Assembly (NCBI GenBank): GCA_032622095.1
Contig: CP136068.1
Location: forward strand, 56,008,025 to 56,072,024
Length of the DNA stretch: 64,000 nucleotides
DNA from: Siphonodentalium dalli
Taxonomy: Eukaryota; Mollusca; Scaphopoda; Gadilida; Siphonodentaliidae
Direction: 5' to 3'
Below are positions 58,646-61,523 of this stretch, piece after piece; position 1 is the stretch's first letter; the number at the start of each line of letters is the position of its first letter. Both the position numbers and the translations under genes were made by a program. The notes beneath the pieces were generated by a model that was not told where the DNA came from, did no database searches, and saw nothing but the letters and a program-made list of their open reading frames with translations.

Positions 58646-58650
58646 GATGG

Positions 58651-58885
58651 TGATAGGTTAGCAGAACTCACCACAAAGAATTATCATCTGGTATGATCCA
58701 CCTCGAGATCCCGCTCGCGCTGGCCTTTGACGAACGCCTTGTTCTTTATCAGTTCCATTCTCTCTCACGTATTTCTACACACACACTAAACTACACTCGC
58801 TATGACGTCACTTCCTTCCGCCTCAGAATGTACAGTACAGTCACACCCAGAAACAAATGTCCATTCACCAAAACACATCGTAACA
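58651..58885 (-). repeat. 3' LTR of the copia element
   Basis: On the minus strand it starts TGTTACGATGTG and ends CTAACCTATCA (TG...CA). It differs from the other LTR near 58702 (3-bp indel), 58715-58720, the CA run near 58785, and 58835. Confidence 0.93.
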
Positions 58886-58912
58886 CATTCCTCTTTCTTT
58901 CTTCTATTTTGT
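58886..58912 (-). promoter_or_regulatory. Polypurine tract
   Basis: AGAAGAAAGAAAGAGGAATG on the minus strand, immediately before the 3' LTR, the expected primer for plus-strand synthesis. Confidence 0.85.
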
Positions 58913-59004
58913 TTTGTTTTTTTTGTTTGTTTTCTTTATATACACAAACAATGAATTATCTACATGAAAATATTCAGTGATGATCTAAAAGTCATATTTT
59001 TCCT

Positions 59005-59514
59005 TCAAAATTGTCCACATACAAGTATCTGTAATAATTCTTTATGTGAAGCCCCCTTTTTGGTTAATGCATCTGCCAGTTGGTTCTTACTCTCTATCCA
59101 TTGAAGTTTTGAAATGTCTCCTTCATTTAGCATCTGCTTGATGTTGGAAATGTCTATTCTTAGTCTCTTTTCAGATGCTAACTTGGTTGAATTTATATTC
59201 TCCACTAGAGAACGATTATCAGTGAACACATCAATGGACATTTTGTTTTTATCCACAGTGTTGAAAAGTAATTCACTCAATATGCAGCCCAAATAATATG
59301 CTGCATCCAGTCCGTCAACCATGGCTAGTGCCTCGGCAGCTAGTGTACTCTTCACAACTCTCCGAATTTTGTTAGACTTCCAGCAAATTGGACTACATTT
59401 TTCATTATTGTCAACCAAGAATATCATATAACCACAAGAGCTAGAATATCCATCAGGAAGGTTTGCAAATGAGGCATCACAGTATAGTCTCAGTCGAAAG
59501 ATTGTTAACATCAT
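59005..59514 (-). pseudogene. copia pol, RNase H part (frame-shifted from RT)
   Basis: The frame carries YCDASFANLPDG, STLAAEALAM, FTDNRSLVENI and KNQLADALTKKG. These supply the catalytic D, E, D and D of a copia-type RNase H, which degrades the RNA template during reverse transcription. It overlaps the end of the RT frame (59477-59514) in another frame, so a small indel has separated the two. The ATG at 59514 is therefore not a natural start. The stop at 59005 is followed by about 90 bp of untranslated sequence and the purine tract. Confidence 0.88.
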
Positions 59515-61102
59515 TAAGTACCGGGAATTTTATTTCGAATGATTCCAATTTGAGATGTTTTAGAATTTTGTTGCATTTAACTAAGTGTTCAACTTTGGGT
59601 TCTTTGATAGATGTGCTGATCTCCAAAGCATCATATGCTGCATCAGGGCGTGTCTGATTAACTATCCAATTGATTTGTCCAGATGAGCTCCGCAATTGTG
59701 TTATTTCACTTTCAGTCAACGGTTCATGTTTCATAGATTTCCGTGCATTGTTTATCGGAATGAATTGTGTAGATTCTATGTATTGTTGTTGATTCATGAA
59801 TATTCCTTCATCTGAATGTCTGATATCAAGTCCAATGTATTTGAATTGAGAAGTTTGATGTCTTCCAATGTTGAAGGTTTCAGACAGAGGAATGATAACA
59901 TTTTCTTTAAATTCCTTTGTACCTGCCCAGATAAAGTCATCAACATGAATTAAGAACATTCCAGAAAGTTCCTTATTGTCATATTTGTAGAATAAGCTTG
60001 GATCAGTTACTGATTTTCGGCACCCTAGTTGTTTCATCACATCACAAACTTTGAAATACCAATTTCTCGAAGCATCATTCAGGCCATATACACATTTTTT
60101 GAGTTTCCATAACTTCCCTGATGACAGTGATATATCCGGTTTGAGATATACTTCTCGTCCAATTTCCATTCCTTGCAGAAAAGCAGCCTTCACATCAATA
60201 AAACTGCATATCCACTCTAATGATGAAGCTAATGCTAATAAGATTTTTAGAGTTTCCTTCCCTGCAGTTGGCGAATCTGTCCTATGTTCATCTTTTTCCT
60301 CAAATCCTCTAGCAACAAGTCGAGCCTTTAACTGCCTTTCCCCATTCTTGAATTTTTCTGTAACGACCCACCTTGTTGATATATATGGCTGACCAACATC
60401 ATCTACTTCTTCATACACCTTAAAGTTTTTCCAGTTGTCAAGTTCCTTCATTTTTGCAATCATAATATCTTCTTCTCGTCCATCTGTTATTACCACATTA
60501 ACTTCATCAATGTTCTGATCATCACTACATATATGTTCATCTCTGCATGTGTCAAAAATCTTCCATTCAACACTCGGATTTTCAAAATCTACACCTGACA
60601 CTTCTGAACTGTGTGAATTCATAACATTAAACCATCCTTTGTACTTTCCTGTTGTCTTTCCACCTCTGCTCACAATATCTGCCTTTTTCCATATATCATC
60701 ACTGTTGACTCTGTACAAGATACAGTCATTCAACTTTGGTAGTCCGGAGTCTTTTCCTTTGGAATTAACTGGATTATTTGTATCATCAGTCTCTTCACAC
60801 GCTGCTGTAGACTTTACACTTCTACCGGTATCATCGCTTTCACTTTCATCTTCTGGTGTCATCTGTGCAGTTGGAATTGTCATACATGTAGTTTGAACCT
60901 TCAAATTCTCCTCTTCGTTATCATTGCTTAACAGTTTAACTTCATCAGTTTTTCCATTTGAAAATTCTTGTCCAACTTTCATCATTCTACAAGACGGAAC
61001 TCGGATGTAAAGACTGCCATGTCTTAAGAAAACCACCTTGCCATCTTGACCCAACACTTTTCCAGGCCCTTTCCAGGCGCAGTGGTAGCGTGCTGGGCCC
61101 AT
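59477..61102 (-). pseudogene. copia pol, integrase C-terminus plus reverse transcriptase
   Basis: 541 codons. Residues 1-9 come from the tRNA-derived sequence, with the ATG being the complement of the CAT anticodon. Residues 10-46 (WKGPGKVLGQDGKVVFLRHG) are the integrase C-terminal domain; 50-200 are an acidic linker. RT spans about 215-450: RWVVTEKF, LKARLVARGF, DVKAAFLQG (303-311, first catalytic Asp), CVYGL (337-341) and HVDD (386-389, catalytic Asp pair). The region after 450 leads to RNase H but ends early at a frameshift. The integrase zinc finger and DDE core, protease and Gag are absent. It is probably untranslated or non-functional alone, since no natural start codon remains. Confidence 0.9.
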
Positions 61103-61142
61103 AACCCAGAGGTCCGAGGATCGTAACCTCGCTCTGCTACCA
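61076..61142 (+). other. Primer-binding region = reverse-transcribed initiator tRNA-Met (positions 9-76)
   Basis: On the plus strand this reads as tRNA-iMet from G9 to CCA. It has the anticodon stem GGG-CCCATAA-CCC with CAT at 61100-61102, T stem CGAGG/CCTCG, loop ATCGTAA, acceptor strand CTCTGCT, A73, then CCA at 61140-61142. Three T's separate it from the LTR. The 5' acceptor strand (1-7) is absent. Nuclear tRNA genes do not encode CCA, so this is a copied tRNA, not a gene. Loop position 58 (61124) is T instead of the near-universal A, and 61086 in the D loop is T where animal initiators usually have A20. Confidence 0.92.
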
Positions 61143-61145
61143 TTT

Positions 61146-61385
61146 TGATAGGTTAGCAGAACTCACCACAAAGAATTATCATCTGGTATGATCCACAGCG
61201 ACGAGATCCCGCTCGCACAGGCCTTTGACGAACGCCTTGTTCTTTATCAGTTCCATTCTCTCTCACGTATTTCTACACACACACACTAAACTACACTCGC
61301 TATGACGTCACTTCCTTCCGCCTCAGAATGTACTGTACAGTCACACCCAGAAACAAATGTCCATTCACCAAAACACATCGTAACA
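61146..61385 (-). repeat. 5' LTR of the copia element
   Basis: TGTTACGATGTG...CTAACCTATCA on the minus strand. Near-identical to 58651-58885, with an extra three bases near 61197 and an extra CA near 61278. Confidence 0.93.
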
Positions 61386-61390
61386 GATGG

Positions 61391-61489: not shown

Positions 61490-61523
<34 letters not shown>

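Follow-up and report, generated by a model that had tools for sequence, protein, structure and literature searches.

The window, a stretch of 64,000 nucleotides (G000:C8:56008025-56072024), lies on one of the nine contigs of a 2.23-Gb genome. The minus strand is occupied at 58651-61385 (2,735 bp) by a copia element, which reads from a 5' LTR of 240 bp (61146-61385, minus strand, TGTTACG...CTATCA) through a 3-nt AAA spacer (61143-61145, minus strand; TTT on the forward strand) into a copy of a tRNA (61142-61076), then into a truncated pol that runs from 61075 downwards, and ends in a 3' LTR of 235 bp (58651-58885, minus strand). The LTRs are paired, begin with TG and end with CA, and the reverse transcriptase is of the copia type (RVT_2, PF07727, E=1.8e-29), as in Ty1/copia elements. 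Aligned with the 5' LTR, the 3' LTR shows a small number of substitutions and two short gaps. These differences (61146-61385 against 58651-58885) are partly clustered, and they may reflect two different RNA templates as the source rather than age. One open frame (59480-61141, minus strand) passes through the tRNA copy into the truncated pol, where it encodes the end of the integrase region and then the RVT_2 reverse transcriptase; a frameshift lies near 59480, before the RNase H part. The complete order gag-PR-IN-RT-RH is thus not present, gag, protease and most of the integrase being deleted here and present upstream in relatives. The element is a defective derivative of a copia family and not an autonomous member of it.

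On the element strand CCATC stands at both ends (61386-61390 at the 5' LTR, 58646-58650 at the 3' LTR), in line with the normal 5-bp duplication of the original prediction. Joined around one CCATC, the flanks match an interspersed repeat without a break in at least 40 of its other copies (positions 2-206 of 210, 88-94% identity), and these uninterrupted copies show the empty site of the insertion. Since the target site duplication and the uninterrupted repeat copies agree, the outer ends of the element are those of one ordinary integrase-type insertion. A long C run is found in the flank (61490-61521).

Between the spacer and pol are 67 nt (61076-61142, forward strand, antisense to the element) that form a DNA copy of positions 9-76 of the initiator tRNA-Met, CCA included. 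Numbering is canonical; this initiator tRNA is without position 17, and its linear positions 14, 29 and 32 correspond to canonical 15, 30 and 33. When compared with a genomic initiator-tRNA gene to which CCA has been added, 66 of the 67 positions from G9 to A76 are identical, and the near-whole initiator tRNA that had been predicted between LTR and pol is indeed there. The span first given for it, 61076-61145, has to be shortened, as 61143-61145 is the TTT spacer, also present in relatives. The only mismatch is A58>T (61124, forward strand), at the m1A site of eukaryotic initiator tRNA. The primer site of the family corresponds to the 3' 18 nt of the initiator tRNA-Met, and this canonical site, the complement of tRNA 59-76, is found at 61125-61142 (minus strand) and is common to the full-length relatives. 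At the locus the complement does not end at position 59, as it would in an ordinary site of about 18 nt, and 49 extra tRNA bases take it on to position 9. The whole copy is contiguous with U5 and the PBS of the same element, as would be expected from read-through during strong-stop synthesis. The flanks of a tRNA gene are missing, CCA is present, and ARAGORN found no tRNA at the locus, the 5' acceptor strand being absent.

The full-length relatives were checked, as had been proposed, and they have a short 18-nt PBS followed by leader and gag. The order in the seven intact family members (L002-L008) is LTR-AAA-TGGTAGCAGAGCGAGGTT, leader, gag, with the end of the PBS changed in L003; where L004 was followed further, gag, a zinc knuckle and protease come before the first part of the integrase (domains named by eye). 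A long tRNA-like PBS might be an ancestral or functional feature of the copia lineage that extends primer pairing, and extended primer contacts are known from other elements; there is also a gag-bearing element in the L075 region (L075/L082, G000:C3:54561454 and 54561737) with six additional tRNA-like bases after its PBS (53-58, with T58). For the family at the locus this idea is refuted: the PBS amounts to only about 18 nt before the leader in seven out of seven intact relatives, none of which has the 67-nt segment, the long copy is single at the locus, and the endpoints vary between loci. We consider an ancestral long site to be exceedingly improbable. The base that follows the PBS is A (sense strand) in five of the seven relatives and T in L002, and as most intact relatives share it, T58 at the locus could be the family base and is not diagnostic by itself.

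Where the pol of the intact relatives reads CCCTTTCCA|TTCCGAGG, continuing CCCTTTCCATTCCGAGG, that of the locus reads CCCTTTCCA|GGCGCAG. The join of pol to tRNA G9 (61075-61076) is blunt, shares no bases with the G9 side and has no microhomology. Compared with the closest relative, on C3, about 2.34 kb are lost, comprising gag, protease and most of the integrase, and the deletion of gag, protease and integrase core that had been predicted is hence confirmed. Further copies of the junction were looked for, as the original prediction had advised; only one was found, at the locus itself, and the tRNA copy, searched as a unit, also occurs once in 2.23 Gb, which excludes chance.

The genome holds hundreds of near-identical initiator-tRNA genes (AGCAGAGTGGCGCAG...CTCTGCTA), and 739 places match the pattern of the anticodon arm with at most two mismatches. 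Among the 195 gene occurrences examined in the retrieved loci, which overlap, so that the distinct genes are fewer, the sequence AGCAGAGTGGCGCAGTGGTAGCGTGCTGGGCCCATAACCCAGAGGTCCGAGGATCGAAACCTCGCTCTGCTA is followed by AAT or ATA and never by CCA, and position 58 is A in all of them. Very large tandem arrays of these genes are found at G000:C2:217638710-217810042, from C2:221653424 onward, and at C4:252312050-252470125 (L009-L068), with repeat units of about 1,028 bp that include tRNA-Gly and of about 1,330 bp that include tRNA-Gly, -Leu and -Arg.

Further LTR-linked copies of the initiator tRNA, the one tRNA covered, were found with a pattern extending past position 58. Five copies are clean: the locus (tRNA 9-76, T58), L069 (15-76, C58), L070 (1-76, G58), L071 (30-76, A58) and the duplicate pair L076/L077, counted once (33-76, G58). 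Their starts at tRNA 1, 9, 15, 30 and 33 differ from locus to locus. Long read-throughs make up at least five of the 78 genome-wide occurrences of the exact 18-nt primer site. Older or more altered LTR-linked copies are L074, L075/L082, L078, L079, L080, L083 and L073. In the clean copies position 58 is changed in four out of five, against 4 of 290 other sites (p=1.1e-6, in a small sample with n=5), and when linear positions 46-57 are left unconstrained, canonical 58 is changed at six of nine independent loci against 13 of 99 for the other eleven positions (p=8e-4). A base other than A at 58, with T arm and acceptor otherwise perfect, is found at only three places in the genome, all of them LTR-linked and none a gene. 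L071 has kept A58. In L070, which reaches position 1, G9 is changed as well, and a base other than G at position 9 with positions 1-32 otherwise perfect has this single occurrence in the genome. Misincorporation at residue 58 thus recurs across events, as strong-stop read-through would have it. Both the change at position 58 and the sister events are additions to the original prediction, which had neither.

Some of these copies have peculiarities of their own. In L070 (L070:1350-1800, G000:C4:118666113-118666413) tRNA 1-76 has an inverted short LTR on one side and on the other what appears to be the 3' internal end of that LTR's family, facing the opposite way; 11 extra bases (AAAAAAAAGCA) are present as well. 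This arrangement suggests that the polymerase ran off the 5' end of the tRNA and then jumped to another template end; the LTR of L070 is split by an inverted-repeat insertion. The gag-bearing element of L075/L082 has another long tRNA copy at a distance of 283 bp, beside a related LTR end. Part of the LTR-linked tRNA copy is repeated in inverted orientation in L073 (1480-1590) and L079 (1430-1524), as would arise if the new strand folded back. The junction of L076/L077 is found twice (G000:C4:294951776 and 296140359), 1.2 Mb apart, in opposite orientation and beside a 54-bp tandem repeat, and is probably a duplicated segment.

The CCA had been put forward as proof that a tRNA molecule, not a gene, was copied. 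This argument does not hold, since the complement of tRNA 59-76, and with it that of CCA, is part of every PBS in the family. An exchange at the DNA level has to be weighed, in which an initiator-tRNA gene and an 18-nt PBS recombined or underwent gene conversion, with a later deletion to pol: there are hundreds of donor genes, positions 59-73 are common to gene and PBS, and CCA could be obtained from the PBS. A gene would however bring A58, and in four of the five clean copies the base is T, C or G; the 5' flanks of the genes are never present, the copies starting inside the tRNA (9, 15, 30, 33) or exactly at 1; and several families with unique junctions, together with the normal target duplication of L071, fit copying before integration. 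Gene conversion is thus very unlikely, if somewhat less so than an ancestral long site. What speaks for a copied, modified tRNA molecule is that 58 is changed to T, C or G in four of five clean copies while the genes have A, that the endpoints include the m1G9 site and G9 is changed in the copy that passes it, and that the pattern recurs across several copia families with an orientation always contiguous with the LTR end. In every case it is the CCA that is joined to the inner end of the LTR, at the locus with the spacer of the family. LINE-1/tRNA chimeras exist (PMC13174262), but a LINE-mediated chimera, a SINE or a tRNA pseudogene beside the LTR by coincidence would not be expected to keep to this rule, the 5-bp duplication surrounds the whole LTR element, and there is no poly(A); such a coincidence is scarcely credible.

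Two of the sister copies, L069 and L071, each come from a different copia family, with about 36-40% identity in pol to the locus, and are likewise built as LTR-tRNA-pol, with a pol that begins near the end of the integrase and contains RVT_2 domains. There are accordingly three loci with such fusions. The open frames of L069 and L071 have 506 and 507 codons, across the stretch read, and each junction is unique, while at least 16 close relatives carry the adjoining pol. The LTRs of L071 are identical at 190 of 190 positions and are enclosed by a 5-bp duplication, CCCGA; this element is young with its ends intact, and the read-through pathway is therefore not an artefact of decay. At the junction L071 has an overlap of 6 nt, and L069 is blunt like the locus, and joining driven by microhomology was rejected as a general explanation since microhomology is absent from two of the three. 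We also do not propose a shared hotspot in pol: the junctions of L069 and L071 are no more than about ten codons apart, that of the locus is about 110 codons downstream, and three events are too few. All three tRNA copies continue in frame into pol, and at the locus the anticodon yields ATG. This was not accepted as evidence of a functional fused ORF, as two of the three antisense-tRNA frames lack stops altogether and the third has none after its second codon; no amplified copies were found. An assembly chimera that joined a tRNA fragment to the element might be suspected from a junction that is single copy and known from the assembly sequence alone, yet the matching target duplication, the empty sites, the parallel independent loci of the same logic and a changed base that is absent from every gene copy make it hardly conceivable.

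Textbooks explain the 18-nt length of a primer-binding site by the stop at m1A58, for which most knowledge comes from HIV-1, both in vitro and in cells. The best explanation for the locus, which we hold with high confidence, is that this stop was read through on the attached primer and that an illegitimate second-strand transfer to pol followed. As part of this explanation the locus is a once-only, internally deleted copia provirus from a failed plus-strand transfer. Judging from the sequence, reverse transcriptase making plus-strand strong-stop DNA (U3-R-U5-spacer-PBS) would have passed m1A58 of the still-attached primer and inserted A opposite it, giving T in the tRNA-sense strand. Copying would have continued to the next block, at the locus G9, the site of m1G9, and elsewhere possibly to the end of the tRNA. 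The over-long 3' end would no longer match its normal acceptor, and synthesis would have resumed, with no microhomology, on minus-strand DNA of pol, probably where an incomplete minus strand had its 3' end, a jump by which gag, protease and most of the integrase would be dropped. The product was integrated with its 5-bp duplication in a copy of the interspersed repeat, and the same kind of read-through would account for at least four further clean copies of the initiator tRNA beside LTRs of related copia families. The original prediction, read-through past 58 to about G9 and then a jump to pol, stands as the best explanation on account of the changes at 58 and G9 and of the recurrence, and its jump is a step that we infer.

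It is a realistic, if somewhat doubtful, possibility that the order was another, with a minus strand that broke off within pol and changed template to the 3' end of the over-extended plus-strand strong-stop DNA. The blunt joins of template ends at the locus and in L069 fit this order, and L071 has its 6-nt overlap. The sequence outcome is identical and cannot separate it from the preferred order, and both require read-through of m1A58. The order of the template jumps, and a minus strand that ended at the pol junction, are thus what we infer for the preferred read-through and transfer, and the blunt joins agree with a jump from one strand end to another.

Human initiator tRNA carries m1G9, m2G10, m2G26, t6A37, m7G46, D47, m5C48 and m1A58 (PMC7293042), and m1A58 and m1G9 are assumed for the initiator tRNA of this animal by analogy with it. 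m1A causes both arrest and misincorporation, with a mismatch that varies with the 3' neighbour (PMC4787781). The change at position 58 is read here as a mark of tRNA modification; a function of the tRNA copy at the locus is not demonstrated. Plus-strand strong-stop DNA of HIV-1 terminates at m1A58, and an unmethylated primer is copied further (PMC13191261). The P1/P5 products, which extend into tRNA-Lys3, share with our locus the attached-primer template, the stop residue and the over-extended product, and the over-extended ends, like those proposed for the locus, fail to support normal second-strand transfer (PMC13191261). The HIV-1 products come from experiments in vitro and in cells, whereas here they are inherited copia integrations with initiator tRNA, rescued by illegitimate transfer to pol. 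Plus-strand synthesis writes tRNA sequence into the provirus also in PBS inheritance of HIV/SIV, but this is limited to the 18 PBS bases and does not include most of a tRNA (PMC4549124). In tRNA/LINE-1 chimeric insertions a tRNA is fused to a retroelement during reverse transcription as well, although by a target-primed LINE mechanism, mostly with tRNA halves and with no link to a primer-binding site (PMC13174262). Helenus TRIM elements also combine an LTR element with tRNA-like sequence, but have it inside the LTR (PMC10886601), whereas at the locus the primer copy is next to the PBS and outside both LTRs. With Ty1/copia elements the locus shares TG...CA LTRs, a 5-bp duplication, an 18-nt initiator-tRNA PBS and RVT_2; its intact relatives have gag and protease, and it differs in being without gag, protease and most of the integrase and in its 49 additional tRNA bases.

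The locus is a form of a known kind of reverse-transcription error, met here as a recurring, inherited record, and we found no report of such inherited copies in a literature of which older subscription papers were incompletely covered. The copies are inherited failures of the m1A58 stop, and indicate that bypass happens in the germ line, with T, G and C as errors. They also show the next stop of the polymerase, and the rescue of an unusable over-long end by a jump to pol. It is quite probable that read-through of m1A58 combined with illegitimate second-strand transfer is a recurrent route to internally deleted copia elements in this genome, and that the copies are a heritable record, readable in the sequence, of tRNA modification and of misreading by reverse transcriptase in past germ lines. 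The same search can be applied to any genome and any primer tRNA, and genomes could then be read as a fossil record both of tRNA modifications and of errors in plus-strand transfer. The pathway would also explain concretely how deleted, non-autonomous LTR elements arise; the copy at the locus is itself a dead-end derivative.
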